Source: Bacillota bacterium (GTDB lineage Bacteria; Bacillota; Dethiobacteria; DTU022). Taken from it: 64,000 bases of DNA. Each line of letters starts with the position of its first letter. Within the stretch, counting starts at the first letter, position 1. The position numbers were made by a program, and so were the translations under genes. The stretch lies in NCBI GenBank assembly GCA_033549065.1, contig JAWSUE010000002.1:124001-188000 (forward strand). The letters run 5' to 3'. The notes below the pieces were generated by a model, which saw nothing but the letters and a program-made list of their open reading frames with translations, made no database searches and had not been told where the DNA came from. Shown piece after piece: positions 35,023-52,077 of the stretch.

Positions 35023-35138
35023 AATTATTTGGGGCTAAGATCTCAACGTTGATCAATACCCTTCAAGTTTAGAGCAAATTTATATATACAGATTTACATC
35101 TGACACAATAACAATAAGGGTAAAGGAGGGCACGAAAA

Positions 35139-36530
35139 ATGAGTGAGTTTTTCACCAGGATGGGTGATGGATCCGGCGTCTACATGACTGCCGAAGAAAT
35201 CAGGGAAGATATCCGGAAAGGCGTAAAAGACGCGGCTGATCGCGGAAAAATCCCCGAACTCACCGAGGAAGAGATGGATAAGCTCTTCGACATTGTTACC
35301 ATGCCCGGTAATATCGTTGGAGTGGAGCGGGGTAGAGAGGTCGTCAGCACCTCTGATTCCGGAAGCTGTAAAATTACCTACCATGCAAACATTGCCATGG
35401 AGCGGTCGATGGCAGTCATGGTTAGTGAAAAAGTTTTGGGTGCCGACTCTGTCGATATTGGCAACATGGACTACAGCTACAAAGCGGTCAAACAGATTGT
35501 CCACAACGAAACACCTGTAATGGAGCTGGCCCAGCTAAATGCTGTAATGCCGGTTCTTTACGGTTCCATGCCGAACCTTGGACTTTACACAAAGCCTGAC
35601 GGGCCGGTTGAAAACTGGTCGGAACTTCTGCCCATGGCCAAGATCGAAGAAGCCCGGGCAGCACAGGAAGAAGCAGTTGAGCACGCAGTGCGCGACATGG
35701 TCTTTGTTGCCGGTGAAATGTATGCTGCCGGGGCAGACGGGATAAACCTTGATACCTGCGGAGCATCCGGAGATGCTGATTTTCTCGCCGGACTGCTGGC
35801 TATCGAAAAAATTAAGGAAAAATATCCTGACCTGGGAGTCGAAATGGGAGCAGCAGGTGAATTTGTCCTCGGCATGCATGGTAAGCTTGAGTATGACGGG
35901 ACAAAAATAGCCGGGCTGTACCCACACAAACAGGTTAAACTGGCTGAGAAAGCCGGGGCAAATATTTTCGGCGCAGTCGTTAATACCAACACCAATATGT
36001 CATTTCCCTGGAACATTGCCCGGACAGTCACCTTTGTTAAGGCCTGCATCGACGCGGCCGATATTCCGGTACATGTCAATGTGGGGATGGGCGTGGGTGG
36101 GATACCGATGAGCGAGATTCCTCCCATCGATGTTGTTACCAGGGCTGATAAAGCGCTGATCGAAATCGGCAAAGCCGACGGGTTATAGATAGGCGTAGGC
36201 GACACATTCAGCCTCGAAGTTGCGCACGCCGTATCTTCCTGCATGAGTGGGATTCGCACAGCCGGAGATCTGGTTCTGCGGATGCAGCTCGCAAAAAGCA
36301 TGAAGATAGACGATGCCAAGAAATACGTAGCAGATAAACTCGGGGTTGAACCTATCGATTTAAGTGATTCGGACCGGATGGCTGAAATTCGGGCCAAGAA
36401 CGGCCTGGGACGGTCGTTTGACCTGAATAATGCGCCAAAAGGCATTGAAGCAAAATTTAATATTGCCAGGATTTTGGGGATCAGGATCAACTCGGTCGAG
36501 CTCTTCAAACAGAGAGCTGGCCTTAAATAA
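35139..36530 (+). CDS. mtbB: Dimethylamine:corrinoid methyltransferase with in-frame UAG (pyrrolysine)
   Basis: MtbB-family TIM-barrel methyltransferase. A UAG at 36186-36188 (codon 350) interrupts what is plainly one gene: before it the family sequence runs DKALIEIGKADGL, and after it, in the same frame, IGVGDTFSLEVAHAV...GIRTAGDLVLRMQLAKSM continues to TAA at 36530. The total is 463 residues, as expected for MtbB, where the amber codon encodes pyrrolysine that binds and activates the methylamine at the barrel centre. Reaction: transfer of a methyl group from dimethylamine to the cobalt of the MtbC corrinoid protein encoded 17 bases downstream. The genome must supply pylT, pylS and pylBCD, which are not in this window. 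Ending the gene at 36188 would be an annotation error. Confidence 0.94.
36186..36188 (+). other. In-frame amber codon decoded as pyrrolysine
   Basis: TAG within mtbB at codon 350. Homologous sequence continues in frame for 113 codons, and the position agrees with the amber site of MtbB proteins. The true terminator is TAA at 36528-36530. Confidence 0.93.
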
Positions 36531-36547: not shown

Positions 36548-37192
36548 ATGAGCTTAGAATCAATTATTGCAGATGCAAAGCAGGCAATCCTCGATATCGA
36601 TGAGGATAAATCAGTTGAAGTGGCCAAGCAGGCCATATCCGAAGGCGTTGATCCCGTCAAAGTCCTGACTGAAGGCTACAGTGCGGGAATCCGCGAAATT
36701 GGCGACCTTTTCAGCAGGGGTGAAGTATTCATGCCCGAGATGATACTTGCTGCCGAAGCTATGAAAGCTGCCGCAGCAGTGCTGGACGAAGCGATCGGCG
36801 AGGAAGCAGCCGAAAAGATCGGTAAAATGATTTTTGCCACTGTTGAAGGCGATGTTCACGATATCGGCAAAGGGATCGCTATTGCCCTTATTCAGACCCA
36901 GGGGATCGAAGTGATAGATCTCGGCCGTGATGTTCCCGTTGACAAGATCATTGAAGAAGCAGAAAAACACCAGGCTCAGGTGATTGGCACCAGCGCACTG
37001 CTGACCACCACCATGCCGAACCAGGAGAAACTGGAAGCAGAACTGCGCAACCGCGGCCTGCGAGATAAATACAAAACCATCGTCGGCGGTGCCCCCTGCA
37101 CCCAGCGCTGGGCCGATAAAATCGGCGCCGACGCTTATGCAGAAGACGCAGCCGAAGGAGTCACAAAAATCCTCGAAATGCTCCAAAAATAA
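36548..37192 (+). CDS. mtbC: Dimethylamine corrinoid protein
   Basis: Cobalamin-binding protein of 214 residues. The N-terminal four-helix cap (IREIGDLFSRGEVFMPEMILAAEAM) precedes a Rossmann B12-binding domain with TVEGDVHDIGKGIAIALI, whose DxHxxG histidine is the lower cobalt ligand, then GTSALLTTTMPNQ and GGAPCTQRWADKIGAD. It carries the methyl group from MtbB to a methyltransferase that passes it on to coenzyme M or tetrahydrofolate. In a bacterium the acceptor is probably tetrahydrofolate. The RBS is AGGAG before ATG 36548. It is cotranscribed with mtbB. Confidence 0.93.
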   Translation: MSLESIIADAKQAILDIDEDKSVEVAKQAISEGVDPVKVLTEGYSAGIREIGDLFSRGEVFMPEMILAAEAMKAAAAVLDEAIGEEAAEKIGKMIFATVEGDVHDIGKGIAIALIQTQGIEVIDLGRDVPVDKIIEEAEKHQAQVIGTSALLTTTMPNQEKLEAELRNRGLRDKYKTIVGGAPCTQRWADKIGADAYAEDAAEGVTKILEMLQK

Positions 37193-44653: not shown

Positions 44654-46219
44654 ATGGAATATGGATTTTTATCTATTTTACCGCCGCTACTAGCTATCGT
44701 TTTAGCTATTGCGACAAGACAAGTCATTGTATCATTATTTATTGCCGTGTGGTTGGGTGCGAGTATTCTCCACGCCAGCCCGATAGATGGATTCTTCCGT
44801 TCAATTGATGTTTACATGCTTGAAAGTTATGCCGATCCGTGGTATGCAGCGATTCTGGTCTTCACCATGATCATTGCCGGAACACTGGGTCTGGTCACCA
44901 AGGCCGGTGGAGCTCAGGCTATAGCCACCGCTCTGACCAAAAAGGCAAAGACCGCCCGCGGCGGCATGCTGGCAGCATGGCTAATGGGTATGATTATCTT
45001 TTTCGATGATTACTCCAGCTGTATCATTGCCGGTAACACCGCCCGCCCGATTACAGACGCCGTTAAAGTATCCAGGGAGAAACTCTCCTACATTATTGAC
45101 TCCACGGCGGCACCTGTAGCTACCTTTGCCCTGATTTCGACCTGGATCGGTTTCGAACTCGGAGTTATCGGGGAAGGTTTTGCAGCGATCGGCCGGGAAA
45201 ATGTTCCCGTTTACCTGATCTTCCTGCAGAGCATTCCTTACAGATTCTATAGTTTCTTTGCCCTGGCCCTGGTGTTGATAACATCAATCACCATGAAAGA
45301 CTATGGGCCAATGTATAACGCAGAAGTTAGAGCCCGCACCACCGGAAAATTGCTTCGTGACGGAGCAGAGCCCCTCTCGGCTACTGATACCGAAGTTCTC
45401 CAGCCGAAGGAAGGTACCCCAATGCGCTGGTATAACTTCGTAGTTCCCATCATCGTAATTATTGCCGCTACTTTCATCGGCCTTTATGTGGCCGGTGGCG
45501 GGTCAGAAGTCGGTATGATGGCTGCCTTCGGTGATGCCGACTCCAGCGTTGTGCTCCTATGGGCATCAAGCCTCGGTGCACTGGTTACCATTATCATGGT
45601 AATTGCCCAGCGGATTGTCGGTCTCCAGGAAGCTATCGACACCCTGATCAACGGTGCCAAGTCTGTTTTCCCGGCTCTGATCATCCTGGTTCTCGCCTGG
45701 TCACTCAGCTACATCTCCGGTGAACTTGGTGCAGCGGAATATCTGGTTGGATTGGTTGAAGCAGCAGGTATCTCTGCAGCTATTCTGCCCCTGTTGATAT
45801 TCCTGATCTCCTGCTTCATGGCCTTCGCCATGGGCACATCATGGGGAACCATGGGTATTGTGGTTCCGCTGGCTATTCCGATTGCAGCCGCAATCGGTGG
45901 CGAGCCTTTCCTGATCCCGACCCTTGGTGCTGTTCTTACCGGTGCCATCTTCGGTGACCACTGCTCGCCTCTGTCCGACACCACCATTCTTTCCTCAACC
46001 GGTGCCGGTTCAGACCATATCGACCACGTTCGCACCCAGATTCCATACGCCCTTACAGGCGCTGTGGTTGCCGGTGTATTTGGATTTATTCCCGCCGGAT
46101 TGGGTGTACACCCGCTAATTTCGCTGGTTCTCGGTATTGTTGTGCTGATCGTCTTCGTCCGCCTGGTTGGAAAACCAACAGGCAATCCTGAATTGATCGA
46201 AGCGAGCCTGAAAAAGTAA
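44654..46219 (+). CDS. nhaC: NhaC-family Na+/H+ antiporter
   Basis: Membrane protein of 521 residues with about 11-12 helices. WLMGMIIFFDDYSSCIIAGNTARPITDAVKVSREKLSYIID is the family core with the buried acidic pair, and SCFMAFAMGTSWGTMGIVVPLAIPIA and GDHCSPLSDTTILSSTGAG are equally diagnostic. Known family role: Na+ export in exchange for H+, or malate/lactate exchange in related members. AGGAGGTAAC precedes ATG 44654. The 250-base leader contains a small GCCCT/AGGGC hairpin (44612-44626) of unknown meaning. The gene ends at a good terminator, so it is probably monocistronic. Confidence 0.92.
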   Translation: MEYGFLSILPPLLAIVLAIATRQVIVSLFIAVWLGASILHASPIDGFFRSIDVYMLESYADPWYAAILVFTMIIAGTLGLVTKAGGAQAIATALTKKAKTARGGMLAAWLMGMIIFFDDYSSCIIAGNTARPITDAVKVSREKLSYIIDSTAAPVATFALISTWIGFELGVIGEGFAAIGRENVPVYLIFLQSIPYRFYSFFALALVLITSITMKDYGPMYNAEVRARTTGKLLRDGAEPLSATDTEVLQPKEGTPMRWYNFVVPIIVIIAATFIGLYVAGGGSEVGMMAAFGDADSSVVLLWASSLGALVTIIMVIAQRIVGLQEAIDTLINGAKSVFPALIILVLAWSLSYISGELGAAEYLVGLVEAAGISAAILPLLIFLISCFMAFAMGTSWGTMGIVVPLAIPIAAAIGGEPFLIPTLGAVLTGAIFGDHCSPLSDTTILSSTGAGSDHIDHVRTQIPYALTGAVVAGVFGFIPAGLGVHPLISLVLGIVVLIVFVRLVGKPTGNPELIEASLKK

Positions 46220-46257
46220 CTGTTTTGGATGAAACAGATACGCATGGTAATAATATA

Positions 46258-46281
46258 AAAGCCGGTCTTCGGGCCGGCTTT
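46258..46281 (+). terminator. Terminator of nhaC
   Basis: AAAGCCGG pairs with CCGGCTTT around an 8-base loop, with A- and T-rich flanks. Confidence 0.85.
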
Positions 46282-46330
46282 TATATTGCATAAAACTCTA
46301 ACCGTTAACAGGTTATTTTGTGTAAAACCT

Positions 46331-46359
46331 TTGCCCGCAGCCGACCGATCTGTTACAAT
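46331..46359 (+). promoter_or_regulatory. Promoter of the GNAT/kamA operon
   Basis: TTGCCC (46331-46336), 17-base spacer, TACAAT (46354-46359) with an extended -10 TG (TGTTACAAT). Confidence 0.75.
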
Positions 46360-46403
46360 AGTTAAGGTGCTTAAGTGATCTGAGAAACGGAAAGGAAATT
46401 TGC

Positions 46404-46847
46404 ATGGAAGTCAGATTGGCTACAGCAAAAGATGAAGATGCCGTTGTTCGCCTCTGGACTATGCTTCTGAATTTCTACAAAAAAGCGACTACAGAGGAAA
46501 TCATGCGCCGCAGTTATCGTTATGCAATTGAACATCCCCACAAGGTTCTTGTCTTTATTATCCTCATCGAAGGTGTGGTAACCGGTACCGCCAGCCTGCA
46601 CCTGGGGCATTATTCTACATGGAACGACAACTTTTACGGCCACATAGAAGATGTAATCGTTGACCCTGCTTACCGGGGTAAAAGTGCGGCCTACAGTCTG
46701 CTGAAGCATGTGCTTGAAGTTGCCAGAGAGAAAAATCTTGGCCGTGTAGAATTAAACTGCCTTGAAGACAACCACACAGCTCGAAGGCTATACGAAAAAC
46801 TCGGTTTTAAAACCGACTCAGTAGCTTACGACCTCAAATTGAACTAG
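46404..46847 (+). CDS. GNAT acetyltransferase next to lysine 2,3-aminomutase
   Basis: Single-domain GNAT of 147 residues. MEVRLATAKDEDAVVRLW opens the fold, VDPAYRGKSAAYSLLKHVLEVA is the acetyl-CoA-binding motif and LNCLEDNHTARRLYEKLGF the C-terminal motif. It is followed 60 bases later by lysine 2,3-aminomutase on the same strand and has the operon promoter, so acetylation of beta-lysine to the osmolyte N-epsilon-acetyl-beta-lysine is an attractive idea. However, the known AblB acetyltransferases are clearly longer, so this may be an unrelated GNAT. AAAGGA lies eight bases before ATG 46404. Confidence 0.82.
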   Translation: MEVRLATAKDEDAVVRLWTMLLNFYKKATTEEIMRRSYRYAIEHPHKVLVFIILIEGVVTGTASLHLGHYSTWNDNFYGHIEDVIVDPAYRGKSAAYSLLKHVLEVAREKNLGRVELNCLEDNHTARRLYEKLGFKTDSVAYDLKLN

Positions 46848-46907
46848 ATTCCGTGGTTTATAAGATATAAACTTTTGAAAACTCAATCCTGGAAAGGAGT
46901 AATTTTC

Positions 46908-48149
46908 ATGCGTGATTACCGGGAAATACAGTTATGGAAAGATGTAAAGCCGGAGGAGTGGAACGATTGGCACTGGCAGGTGCGCAACCGGATCACCACC
47001 CTTGATCAATTGGAGCAGGTTATCGAATTAACTACAGAGGAAGCTGAAGGGGTCGAGAAGTGCCTCAAGCAGTTCAGAATGGCCATAACCCCTTACTATG
47101 CCTCGCTGATGGATCCTGTTGACCGTGGATGCCCCGTCCGCCTGCAGGCAGTGCCGACCTATCACGAACTGCATAAAGCCGACTCTGATATGACCGATCC
47201 CCTGCATGAAGATGTCGACTCCCCGGTGCCCGGACTGACCCATCGCTATCCCGACCGGGTGCTCTTCCTGGTTACCGACCAATGCTCAATGTACTGCCGA
47301 CACTGCACCCGGCGCCGCATGGCCGGGCAGACTGACAAACCGAATAAACGCGATAATATTGACGCGGCCATCGAGTATATCCGCCGCACGCCGATTGTCA
47401 GGGATGTTTTGATCTCCGGTGGCGATGGGTTGCTCATCGGTGATGACCTGATTGAATACATCCTGAAAAAACTGCGCGAAATTGATCATGTCGAAATGAT
47501 CCGTTTCGGCAGCCGCACACCGGTTGTAATGCCTCAACGCATTACCCCCGAACTCTGTGCGATGCTAAAGAAATACCATCCCATATACCTGAATATGCAT
47601 TTCAATCACCCGAAGGAGTTCACCAGAGAATCGGCAGAAGCATGTGCCCGCCTGGCTGATGCCGGAATACCGCTCGGCAACCAGTCAGTTCTCCTTGCCG
47701 GGGTTAACGACTGCCCGCAGGTGATGAAAAAGCTGAGCCATGAGCTTCTGAAAAACAGGGTCCGCCCCTACTATATTTACCAGTGCGACCTTTCGCAGGG
47801 TATCGAGCACTTCCGCACATCTGTTGCAGCCGGAATCGAAATTATAGAAAACCTGCGCGGACATACTACAGGTTTGGGGGTTCCCACATTTGTTGTCGAC
47901 GCCCCCGGCGGAGGCGGAAAAATTCCTGTTATGCCACAGTATCTGGTCAGCCAGTCGCCGCACCGTGTTGTGGTCCGTAACTTTGAGGGAGGGCTTTATT
48001 CCTACACCGAACCGCACCGCGAGGTTAACCCGGAAGAGCCCTGTGCCCTCTGCGGAGGAACCCACAACAACTACGATGTTGGTGTGGCCTCCCTGCTTAA
48101 CGGACAGGCCGTAGCTATGGAACCGGCCGTTAAAAAAGAGAAAAACTGA
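46908..48149 (+). CDS. kamA: Lysine 2,3-aminomutase
   Basis: Radical SAM/PLP enzyme of 413 residues converting L-lysine to beta-lysine. The cluster motif is CSMYCRHCTRRR near residue 126. DVLISGGDGLLI is the SAM-binding GGD region. YYIYQCDLSQGIEHFRT and FVVDAPGGGGKIPVMPQY carry the two aspartates and the PLP lysine that distinguish lysine from glutamate aminomutases. The ending CALCGGTHNNYDVG is a short extra Cys-bearing tail. I use ATG 46908, nine bases after AAAGGAG, instead of TTG 46875. No other lysine-fermentation genes are adjacent, so an osmolyte role with the preceding GNAT or a link to the following MttB-family gene is possible. Confidence 0.93.
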   Translation: MRDYREIQLWKDVKPEEWNDWHWQVRNRITTLDQLEQVIELTTEEAEGVEKCLKQFRMAITPYYASLMDPVDRGCPVRLQAVPTYHELHKADSDMTDPLHEDVDSPVPGLTHRYPDRVLFLVTDQCSMYCRHCTRRRMAGQTDKPNKRDNIDAAIEYIRRTPIVRDVLISGGDGLLIGDDLIEYILKKLREIDHVEMIRFGSRTPVVMPQRITPELCAMLKKYHPIYLNMHFNHPKEFTRESAEACARLADAGIPLGNQSVLLAGVNDCPQVMKKLSHELLKNRVRPYYIYQCDLSQGIEHFRTSVAAGIEIIENLRGHTTGLGVPTFVVDAPGGGGKIPVMPQYLVSQSPHRVVVRNFEGGLYSYTEPHREVNPEEPCALCGGTHNNYDVGVASLLNGQAVAMEPAVKKEKN

Positions 48150-48218
48150 AAAAATAAAATAAGTATAAAGAAGTACTCCGAGTACTGTTTATTAACTTAT
48201 TGAGTTAGGAGAATTTAA

Positions 48219-49700
48219 ATGGAAAAGTATACATTCACCGGTCAGCCCAAACTGCGCATTTTAACTGATGAGCAGATCAAGCTGATTCACCTGGAAGCAC
48301 TGCATGTGCTCGAGAAGACCGGTGTAAAATTTGAATCGGAAGAAGCGTTGAAAATTCTTAAAGACAACGGAGCCGTTGTCGATTTTGATAAAAAAATTGC
48401 CAAGATCAACCCCCAGATGGTTGATGATGCGGTAAAAAAAGCCCCCAACGGTTTCAGACTTTACAACCGTGAAGGCGAGCTTGCCGCTAATATGAGCAAC
48501 AACAACGTGCATTTTGATCCCGGTTCTTCCATGATCAAGTTCATGGAATCGGATGGTAAAACAGTGCGCAAGACCGAATCGAAAGACTTAATCGAGATCA
48601 GCAGACTCAATGATGCCATGCAGAATATCCACCTCCAGTCGACCTCGGTGGTCTGCTACGATGTTCCCGAATTGATCGGTGACAGCTATCGTCTCTATCT
48701 CTGTCTGAAGAATTCGCCGAAAGCGATCATCACCGGGGCTTTTTCTGTCCGCGGAGTGACCCACATGCGCGAAATGCTCGCCGCTGTAGCCGGAGGCTAC
48801 GACCAGCTTCGTGAAAAACCGCTGGCCGTATTCGATATTTGCCCGTCACCTCCGCTCAAGTGGACCCACATCAGCGCCCAGAACATAATCGACTGTGCCC
48901 GTTACGATCTGCCGCTGGAGACTGTCGCCCTGCCCATGCCCGGAGCCGGCACACCGGTAACTCTGGCCGGTTCAGTCGTGGTCCATACCGCTGAAACTTT
49001 GAGCGGTCTGGTCCTCGCCCAATGTATCAACCCCGGTGCCCGTGTTGTTTACGGTGGCGCACCGGTCCAGTTCGATATGCGTTTCGGAACAACACCGTTC
49101 AGCGCTGTCGAAGCAACCATGATGGCCGCTGCATATGCCCAGATGGGTAAATATTTCGGCATGCCGACCCACACATACGCCGCTCTGAGCGACTCCAAAA
49201 CAATTGATACCCAGGCCGGAATAGAGACAGGTATGAGCGGGATTATCGCCCAGCTGGCCGGAATAAACATGATTTCAGGCCCCGGTTCACTCGATTTTGT
49301 TAATACTTTCAGCCTGGAGAAACTGGCTATCGATAATGAAGTTTGTGGAATGGCCCTGCGGATGCAGAAGGGCATAGACTGCTCACCTGAATCACTGGCC
49401 ATCGATGTTATCGACGAACTAGGACCCGGCGGTGCCTACCTGGAAGCGGAACATACCTTCCGGTGGTTTAAAAAAGAGCCTTATATTCCGTCCCTGATAA
49501 TTGACCGTCACGACCGAAAGAACTGGGAAGACGAGGGAAGCAGGAGCGCCTTCCAGCGAGCGCAGGAGCGGGTTAAAGAAATCAAAGAAACTCATACTCC
49601 CCTGCCCCTGGGAGATGATAGGGAAGAGAAACTTGATACGGTTACACGTGAAATCATGAAAGAGCTGAAGATCAGCGAGCTCCCCCAGGGCCCGAAATAA
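48219..49700 (+). CDS. MttB-family methyltransferase lacking pyrrolysine
   Basis: COG5598/MttB superfamily protein of 493 residues with no internal UAG. Family blocks include LTDEQIKLIHLEALHVLEKTGVKFE, NVHFDPGSSMIKFME, VAGGYDQLREKPLAVFDICPSPPLKW and ALSDSKTIDTQAGIETG, the last spanning the region where true trimethylamine methyltransferases hold pyrrolysine. Non-pyrrolysine members demethylate quaternary amines such as glycine betaine, proline betaine or carnitine and pass the methyl to a corrinoid protein. No corrinoid gene is adjacent; MtbC at 36.5 kb is the only one in the window. It lies 69 bases after kamA, so its natural substrate may be a methylated amine linked to lysine or beta-lysine; this is speculation. 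AGGAG precedes ATG 48219. Confidence 0.88.
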   Translation: MEKYTFTGQPKLRILTDEQIKLIHLEALHVLEKTGVKFESEEALKILKDNGAVVDFDKKIAKINPQMVDDAVKKAPNGFRLYNREGELAANMSNNNVHFDPGSSMIKFMESDGKTVRKTESKDLIEISRLNDAMQNIHLQSTSVVCYDVPELIGDSYRLYLCLKNSPKAIITGAFSVRGVTHMREMLAAVAGGYDQLREKPLAVFDICPSPPLKWTHISAQNIIDCARYDLPLETVALPMPGAGTPVTLAGSVVVHTAETLSGLVLAQCINPGARVVYGGAPVQFDMRFGTTPFSAVEATMMAAAYAQMGKYFGMPTHTYAALSDSKTIDTQAGIETGMSGIIAQLAGINMISGPGSLDFVNTFSLEKLAIDNEVCGMALRMQKGIDCSPESLAIDVIDELGPGGAYLEAEHTFRWFKKEPYIPSLIIDRHDRKNWEDEGSRSAFQRAQERVKEIKETHTPLPLGDDREEKLDTVTREIMKELKISELPQGPK

Positions 49701-49745
49701 GCCGGGTAAAGAGCTCAATATAAAATCAAGATGATTATAAAAGAA

Positions 49746-49790
49746 AATAAGTTGACGAAAAGTGGACAGGCTTTAAATCGTCAACTTATT
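49746..49790 (+). terminator. Terminator after the MttB-family gene
   Basis: AATAAGTTGACGA pairs perfectly with TCGTCAACTTATT (13 bp) around a 19-base loop, followed by TTT. Confidence 0.75.
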
Positions 49791-49845
49791 TTTGTTAAAA
49801 AGCTGAACATGATATGATAAAGGAAAAGAAGAAGAGGAGAAACCG

Positions 49846-52077
49846 ATGATTTCCCCTGGTTCAGATTTTCAGGACAGAAGAGCGGTTATTGTTTCCAACA
49901 GGCTGCCGGTAACCGTTACCAGAAAAGGTGGGATAATAAAAGTCGCACCCAGCGTGGGCGGGCTCGCTACCGGTTTGTCATCTTTTCATCGAAGCAATGA
50001 CGGATTATGGGTCGGCTGGCCCGGATTCAGCCCCGGAAGCCAGGCGATACAGGAAGAAACTGAGGAAATACTCCGCAATGAACAAAACTGTGTTCCTGTT
50101 TACCTCTCTGCATCTGACCTTAAAAAATATTATAATGGCTTCAGCAACGGAACTCTTTGGCCTCTCTTTCACTATTTCACAACATACTGCTCGTATAAGA
50201 TCTCAGAATGGGAAGCCTACAAAAAGGTTAATCAAATGTTTTGCCGCAGGTTAAAAGAAGTGGTCCAGCCCGATGACATGGTATGGATTCATGACTACCA
50301 TTTACTCCTTCTCCCGGAACTCCTGCGCCGGGAAGTGCCTGATGTGACCATCGGATTTTTTCTACATATTCCCTTCCCTTCCATGGAAATCTTCCGTCAA
50401 CTGCCCTGGAGAGAAGAGATCCTGAACGGGATGCTCGGGGCCGACCTGATCGGCTTTCACACTTACGATTACACCCGGCATTTCTTGAGCTGTCTGCTGC
50501 GAATACTGGGTAAGGAGCAGTCATACGGGAAACTGGTTGTTGATAACCGAATGATCACGGTTGATACTTTTCCCATGGGGATCGATACAGAAAAATTCGC
50601 TTCAGCATCTGCATCTCCGGCAGTATCTATTAAAAAGGAGCATCTCCTGAAAAAAGTTAAAACAGAAAAAATCATTCTCTCCGTCGACCGTCTTGATTTC
50701 TCAAAGGGAATTCCGGAACGGCTTAAAGCTTTTGAACTCTTCCTTGATCAATACCCGCAGTGGCAGGGGCGGGTAACCTTCATCATGCTCTGTGTTCCAT
50801 CCAGGACCAAGGTTAGGGAATACCGTATGTTAAAAAGCGAAATCGATGAACTGGTTGGAAGGATTAATGGCCGTTTCGATACACTGGAATGGCTGCCCAT
50901 CCTTTACATGTACCGATCACTCCCCTTTGAAGAGCTGGTATCTCTATATACTTCAGCTGATCTAGCCCTCGTAACCCCCTTGCGAGACGGGATGAACCTG
51001 GTTGCCAAAGAATATCTGGCCTGTCAGAGCCATACTGCCAAAGGTGCGCTTGTTTTAAGTGAAACTGCCGGCTCTGCCGCAGAACTTGGCGAGGCTATAT
51101 TGGTCAACCCGAATGACCTTGAAATGATGGCCGGAGCCATTGCCCGGGGGTTATCGCTTACGGATGAAGAAAAGAAGTATTCAATTGATACCATGGTCGA
51201 CCGGCTCAACAAATATAATATATACAGATGGGCGGAGGACTTTATTACTACCCTTACCCAGACCAAGGAGAACCAGGTTAACAGCAAACAGCGTTTTATG
51301 GTTCGGCAGTATGAGAAAAAATTGCAGGAAAAATATCAGCTGGCAGACCGCAGATTATTGCTGCTCGACTATGACGGCACCCTGACCTCCATCAGGAAAA
51401 GACCGGACCTGGCCAATCCCGATGCTGAACTCATAGAGCTGTTGGCCGGATTGAAGAATGACAGTAAGAACACGGTAGTGATTATCAGCGGCAGAGACAG
51501 GGAAACCCTTACCCGGTGGCTGAGCGAAACAGGGGTTGATTTAGTTGCAGAACATGGTACCTGGCTTCGTGAATCCTCCTGGGAATCCTGGAAACCGACT
51601 ATCGAAGGGCTGACAGACGATTGGAAACAAAATGTTCGGCCTATACTCGATCAATTCAGTATCAGGACGCCAGGCTCATTCATCGAAGAAAAGGCGCATG
51701 CCCTGGTTTGGCATTACCGAAAATCAGACCCCGCGCTCGGTGACCTGCGGGCCAAAGAATTAAATGATGCTTTACACGACATTCTCTCAGGGACTGACCT
51801 TCAGGCGCTCCCCGGCAGAAAAGTATTGGAAATTAAACCGGTAGGTGTCAATAAAGGGCGGGCAGCCCAGCACTGGCTGGAAAAAGCTGACATTGCTGAC
51901 AGCTGGGATTTTATCCTAGCCATGGGTGATGACCTGACGGACGAAGATATTTTTTCAATCGTTCCTGAATATGCCTGGAGTATCAAAGTCGGGTTGGCTT
52001 CGTATACCAGGGCTGGTTTCTTCCTGGAATCGCCTGATCAGACCAGGAAGTTGCTGCAAAATCTTGAAAAATCGTAG
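49846..52077 (+). CDS. otsAB: Trehalose-6-phosphate synthase/phosphatase fusion
   Basis: Bifunctional protein of 743 residues. Residues 1-475 are a GT20 synthase: [70 protein letters not shown] and [12 protein letters not shown]. Residues 495-740 are a HAD phosphatase: [23 protein letters not shown] and [14 protein letters not shown]. It makes trehalose from UDP-glucose (or another NDP-glucose) and glucose-6-phosphate in one chain, as in some archaea and bacteria. It is cytoplasmic. GGAGA precedes ATG 49846. A phosphorylase and phosphoglucomutase pair encoded convergently nearby may recycle the disaccharide. It probably provides an osmoprotectant. Confidence 0.93.

Follow-up and report, generated by a model that had tools for sequence, protein, structure and literature searches.

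A bacterial mtbB gene with an in-frame UAG codon that is probably read as pyrrolysine, and an RNA hairpin conserved downstream of it

Does an in-frame UAG codon inside a bacterial methyltransferase gene end the protein or encode part of it, and if the latter, as which amino acid? The question is raised by a putative mtbB gene, encoding dimethylamine:corrinoid methyltransferase, at positions 35139-36530 of the window (the whole stretch of 64,000 nucleotides of a Bacillota genome that was analysed here). Features of mtbB and of the gene directly downstream all lie on the forward strand.

One methyltransferase frame across codon 350

The region 35139-36530 translates as 349 sense codons starting with ATG, TAG, 113 further sense codons, and TAA at 36528-36530, which places the UAG at 36186-36188 (codon 350), to the base where the original prediction had put it. 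A Shine-Dalgarno-like sequence, AAGGAGGG, can be read directly ahead of the gene at 35123-35130. With the UAG taken as pyrrolysine, the 22nd amino acid, MtbB would be 463 residues long. This read-through product scores 522.7 bits against TIGR02368 (cut-off 369.1; profile positions 3-464 of 466) and 641.2 bits against Pfam PF09505 (Dimeth_Pyl), and by these profile scores it is an equivalog-level MtbB, in agreement with the dimethylamine methyltransferase identity first proposed. When the two parts are aligned separately, residues 1-349 match Dimeth_Pyl positions 2-353 (483.5 bits) and residues 351-463, encoded with the TAA at 36189-36530, match positions 355-462 (139.9 bits). Family sequence thus runs on for 113 codons past the UAG, as had been claimed, and because the two pieces match adjoining parts of the profile, a single profile position falls on the UAG itself. 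A sequence search of the PDB returned no solved structure of any MtbB relative. A standard gene caller would drop the C-terminal 113 codons or label them an orphan, and annotation that split or truncated mtbB in this way would conceal the methylamine metabolism of the organism.

The frame is intact and is under selection on both sides of the UAG. In comparisons with eight close homologues (77-81% nucleotide identity), dN/dS past the UAG is 0.05-0.09 and synonymous changes are 1.8 to 3 times as frequent as non-synonymous changes; by this measure, the codons 3' of the UAG are under purifying selection. Of 86 homologous mtbB matches from bacteria and archaea, 85 have TAG at the aligned codon, as do all 22 further complete matches found across the phylum beyond the window's family. 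Given the dN/dS values and this conservation, neither chance nor an assembly error explains the UAG.

The only complete mtbB homologue recovered that departs from this pattern has a leucine codon, TTG, where the others have UAG. It comes from a Clostridia bacterium Soudan_22 MAG (locus L088, 6001-7377), is full-length (TIGR02368, 495.7 bits) and otherwise intact, and its host genome has pylS. It may represent an MtbB that naturally lacks pyrrolysine, or the TTG may have arisen by recent mutation or through an error in sequencing.

UAG is used in this organism both as a stop and as a sense codon. A census of 831 kb of sampled genome sequence counted 614 ORFs of 150 codons or more that do not overlap one another; TAG ended 117 of them (19.1%; about 18% with recoded genes removed), so that translation probably stops at codon 350 some of the time. 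That UAG ends about a fifth of genes sharpens the question of how the mtbB UAG is distinguished. On inspection of the sequences, nearly all TAG-ending ORFs with long extensions look like adjacent in-frame genes; a GNAT acetyltransferase gene followed by a lysine 2,3-aminomutase gene in the window is one such pair and was rejected as read-through. The candidates left among the TAG-ended ORFs are the methyltransferases and one gene for a DUF2254 membrane protein (locus L116, 13100-14512, minus strand, on contig C11), which has an isolated in-frame TAG followed by 265 intact codons. A relative (locus L141) has Asp at that position, where TAG is not conserved, and this TAG is either read through and tolerated or a nonsense mutation of recent origin.

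That the mtbB UAG is likewise a true nonsense mutation, which would make mtbB a pseudogene or end its product after 349 residues, could draw on the use of TAG as a stop in about 18% of genes and on the DUF2254 case, but it is extremely improbable and already refuted at the sequence level by purifying selection that continues past the codon, by retention of TAG at the same codon across bacteria and archaea, by a UAG common to three mtbB paralogues and by a complete pyl cassette.

Pyrrolysine machinery and proposed methyl transfer

The genome is about 98% complete, in 61 contigs. It was searched for the genes on which pyrrolysine decoding had been predicted to depend, namely pylT with a CUA anticodon, pylS and pylBCD, and every one of them lies in a single cassette on contig C5, a different contig from that of the window mtbB. 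The order is pylT-pylSc-pylB-pylC-pylD-pylSn, within 4.5 kb (locus L020, 5200-9691), and pylTScBCDSn is the usual gene order in bacteria (PMC3941956). ARAGORN reports a tRNA-Pyl (cta) at L020 5200-5271 with a cloverleaf fold and a small variable loop. PylSc scores 351.4 bits against TIGR02367 (cut-off 178.15) and PylSn 124.8 bits against TIGR03912 (cut-off 51.15), while PylB, PylC and PylD, at 508.1, 433.8 and 250.4 bits, respectively, each exceed their NCBIfam cut-offs.

Reading of the UAG through near-cognate suppression or by some other suppressor tRNA, which would insert a standard amino acid, has some room in that we infer pyrrolysine at codon 350 and that tRNAs were scanned for in the window and in the surroundings of the other UAG methyltransferase genes. 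Within that range, however, no second CTA tRNA was found; the tRNA-Pyl (CUA), a dedicated synthetase and the biosynthesis genes sit together; and at the same codon of archaeal MtbB, the mass of pyrrolysine has been demonstrated by mass spectrometry (PMC2933860). We give insertion of a standard amino acid hardly any weight.

The distribution of mtbB among relatives points to pyrrolysine as well. Among the 60 relatives searched, 16 carry mtbB; pylS is above cut-off in 14 of these 16, with a pylS fragment at a contig end in one more, compared with only 4 of the 44 that lack mtbB (Fisher p about 2e-8 when only pylS genes above cut-off are counted, 14/16 vs 4/44). One relative (G027) has three complete UAG mtbB genes in an assembly rated 96% complete, yet none of its genes reaches the pylS cut-off; an assembly gap is the probable cause, and otherwise pylS has been lost. 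Across the phylum, mtbB was found in 16 of 398 sampled genomes. The closest named homologues, at 86-93% identity, come from Bacillota MAGs, several of them labelled Syntrophomonadaceae or just Bacillota bacterium. In 2014, mtbB was described as almost exclusive to Methanosarcinales (PMC3941956); contrary to that view, mtbB and the pyl cassette are common in one uncultured Bacillota family. The wording "a few bacteria" in the original prediction is dated by the 16 mtbB-carrying relatives. Bacterial pyrrolysine MtbB genes have already been published, and the window mtbB is ordinary as a kind.

Two known systems offer a comparison. MtbB of Methanosarcina (mtbB1-3) is similarly a full-length family member with UAG at the aligned codon and a cognate corrinoid protein (PMC2933860), at about 48-52% amino acid identity to the window MtbB; its archaeal host has a one-piece PylS, whereas the synthetase here is split into PylSc and PylSn. 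The Bacillota organism 'Ca. Formimonas warabiya' DCMF likewise has pylT, pylSc, pylSn, pylBCD and UAG methyltransferases including mtbB, with 96 methyltransferase genes, 23 of them with pyrrolysine (PMC6778437), compared with the five UAG methyltransferase genes found in the present genome. All five exceed their family cut-offs once read through. They include three mtbB genes with one TAG each and two of the nine MttB-superfamily genes, which, read through, score as true TMA methyltransferases; mtmB was looked for in the genome and was not found.

A corrinoid protein gene, which the original prediction did not include, starts 17 nt past mtbB (36548-37192). Its mtbC-like product scores 227.2 bits against TIGR02370 (cut-off 215.3) and 207 bits against the best specific model, MtbC NF041607, which is under the cut-off of 350 and leaves the type of partner uncertain. 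The position of this gene supports methyl transfer from MtbB to a cognate corrinoid protein, and the mtbB copy on contig C8 is also adjoined by a corrinoid gene.

The family score, dN/dS, the conservation of TAG, the pyl cassette and the co-occurrence of mtbB and pylS together make it very probable that this is a bacterial mtbB in which codon 350, a UAG, encodes pyrrolysine and whose product carries out dimethylamine:corrinoid methyl transfer. What had been observed about the interrupted frame is confirmed, and its interpretation is supported. We infer pyrrolysine insertion, dimethylamine as the substrate and eventual transfer of the methyl group to tetrahydrofolate. During translation, the UAG would be read by tRNA-Pyl(CUA), which the two-piece PylSc/PylSn synthetase would load with pyrrolysine produced by PylB, PylC and PylD. 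The 463-residue MtbB would bind and activate dimethylamine through the pyrrolysine ring and would hand the methyl group to the corrinoid protein encoded directly downstream. Pyrrolysine lies in the active site and activates the methylamine for transfer to the Co(I) of the cognate corrinoid protein, as described for MttB (PMC9842639), and this role holds for the methylamine methyltransferase family (PMC2933860). The methyl group would then most likely pass to tetrahydrofolate via a pterin-binding methyltransferase, as in other bacteria, where it is thought to reach that carrier (PMC8318568). The genome encodes three Pterin_bind proteins, which might carry out the later methyl transfer, and two proteins with a RACo C-terminal domain, which might reactivate the corrinoid.

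A covarying RNA hairpin 3' of the UAG

A second feature beyond the original prediction is an RNA element. The stretch 36186-36285 matches Rfam PYLIS_2 (RF02509), the mtbB pyrrolysine insertion sequence, at 45.5 bits (gathering 36, E 5.4e-10), and other mtbB genes in this genome and in relatives also match. Within it, a stem-loop at 36252-36283, 66-98 nt 3' of the UAG, covaries in bacterial mtbB, and its near-invariant core GCCGGAGATCTGGT (36261-36274), which forms the apical stem and loop, is under the strongest synonymous constraint in the gene. Another hairpin, right after the UAG (36187-36236), was rejected as it is not conserved even in close relatives.

The stem-loop was analysed in 41 dereplicated bacterial mtbB genes with less than 80% nucleotide identity to each other, with expected codon counts taken from each gene's own codon use. 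Synonymous constraint peaks at codons 372-379, where GGA is found in 40/41 genes against 11.6 expected, CTG in 34/38 against 11.5 and GCC in 30/35 against 11.8. The third positions of these codons pair mutually in the stem-loop, and the pairs change in step: 72-93 occurs as C-G, G-C, U-A, U-G and A-U, and 75-90 as U-A, A-U, U-G and C-G. The wobble base in the loop (the A of GGA) is unpaired yet conserved in 40/41. Overall, 85.2% of cells are paired compared with 77.3% in shuffles, and both sides have changed in 52 cells compared with 21, neither value being reached in any of 500 shuffles; sliding the partner strand by 1-3 columns reduces pairing to 29-41%. Since the shuffle p-values are inflated by shared descent, the hairpin was also ranked against all other wobble-wobble helices in mtbB. 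With 33.4 it has the top score among 2,492 helices, in a tree-free ranking of the same sequences, followed by overlapping shifted versions of itself, by 364-373 at 16.8, which shares codons with it, and by a best score of 13.4 elsewhere in the gene. Of 196 loci, 52 contain the core CCGGAGAYCTGG, none of them more than once, at coordinates that fit the mtbB site. The window has one copy of GCCGGAGATCTGGT against 0.05 expected with one mismatch allowed. These comparisons indicate that the hairpin 66-98 nt past the UAG is under RNA-level selection in bacteria. Twelve archaeal mtbB genes showed no covariation at the bacterial helix; in archaeal mtbB, synonymous constraint is instead strongest around and directly after the UAG (codons 349-355, peak 351-355).

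Part of the bacterial hairpin is already contained in RF02509. The window fits the full model above gathering, with the model's 3' hairpin in the same register, but the pairs of the model run over 73-92 and break at 78-87, whereas the bacterial stem reaches 67-98, pairs at 78-87 and covaries strongly. RF02510 (PYLIS_3), from mttB, matches both of the mttB genes with a UAG found here; it is a different family with a different sequence and was not found at mtbB. A review reported no PYLIS-like element in mtbB and little covariance in the mtmB element (PMC2933860). A 2013 paper put forward a consensus structure for mtbB (PMC3639795). The structural detail of that proposal aside, we did not find the extended stem or the strong bacterial covariation in the publications consulted. 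The covarying hairpin bears on an old dispute over whether message structure matters for pyrrolysine (PMC2933860).

What the hairpin does can be stated with less confidence than that it is selected. A role in mRNA stability, in translational coupling to mtbC or in protein control, with RF02509 a decoding element in name only, is the somewhat favoured explanation. The hairpin lies past the stretch of mRNA that a ribosome halted at the UAG would occupy; L088 has lost the UAG, perhaps recently, and still retains a PYLIS_2 match at 43.2 bits; PYLIS is non-essential in archaeal mtmB (PMC2933860); and the UAG mttB genes found here do not contain the core motif. Against such roles, the hairpin was found together with the UAG in all but one bacterial mtbB examined, and in bacterial and archaeal mtbB alike the peak of synonymous constraint falls in the 100 nt that follow the UAG, although at different places. 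That the hairpin is a lineage-specific cis element favouring pyrrolysine insertion over termination is a tentative proposal, which we would not ourselves expect to hold. As it begins 66 nt past the UAG and L088 keeps its PYLIS_2 match, we offer an effect on decoding as a hypothesis only, and some other function of the RNA is no less likely. If the decoding role were true, bacteria that use UAG both ways would have a message-specific recoding signal.

Other genes of the window and genome

Several further genes deserve mention. A RACo C-terminal-domain match at locus L140 (contig C12, 72230-73012) has an in-frame TAA and may be a pseudogene or contain a frame break. In the window, an MttB-superfamily gene at 48219-49700 has no UAG and scores 438 bits against the TMA methyltransferase cut-off of 525; its product is possibly a betaine-type methyltransferase. 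The region 44654-52077 contains, at short distances, a Na+/H+ antiporter gene, a GNAT acetyltransferase gene beside that for lysine 2,3-aminomutase, and a trehalose synthase/phosphatase; the grouping resembles a set for osmoadaptation through N-acetyl-beta-lysine and trehalose and hints at a saline habitat.
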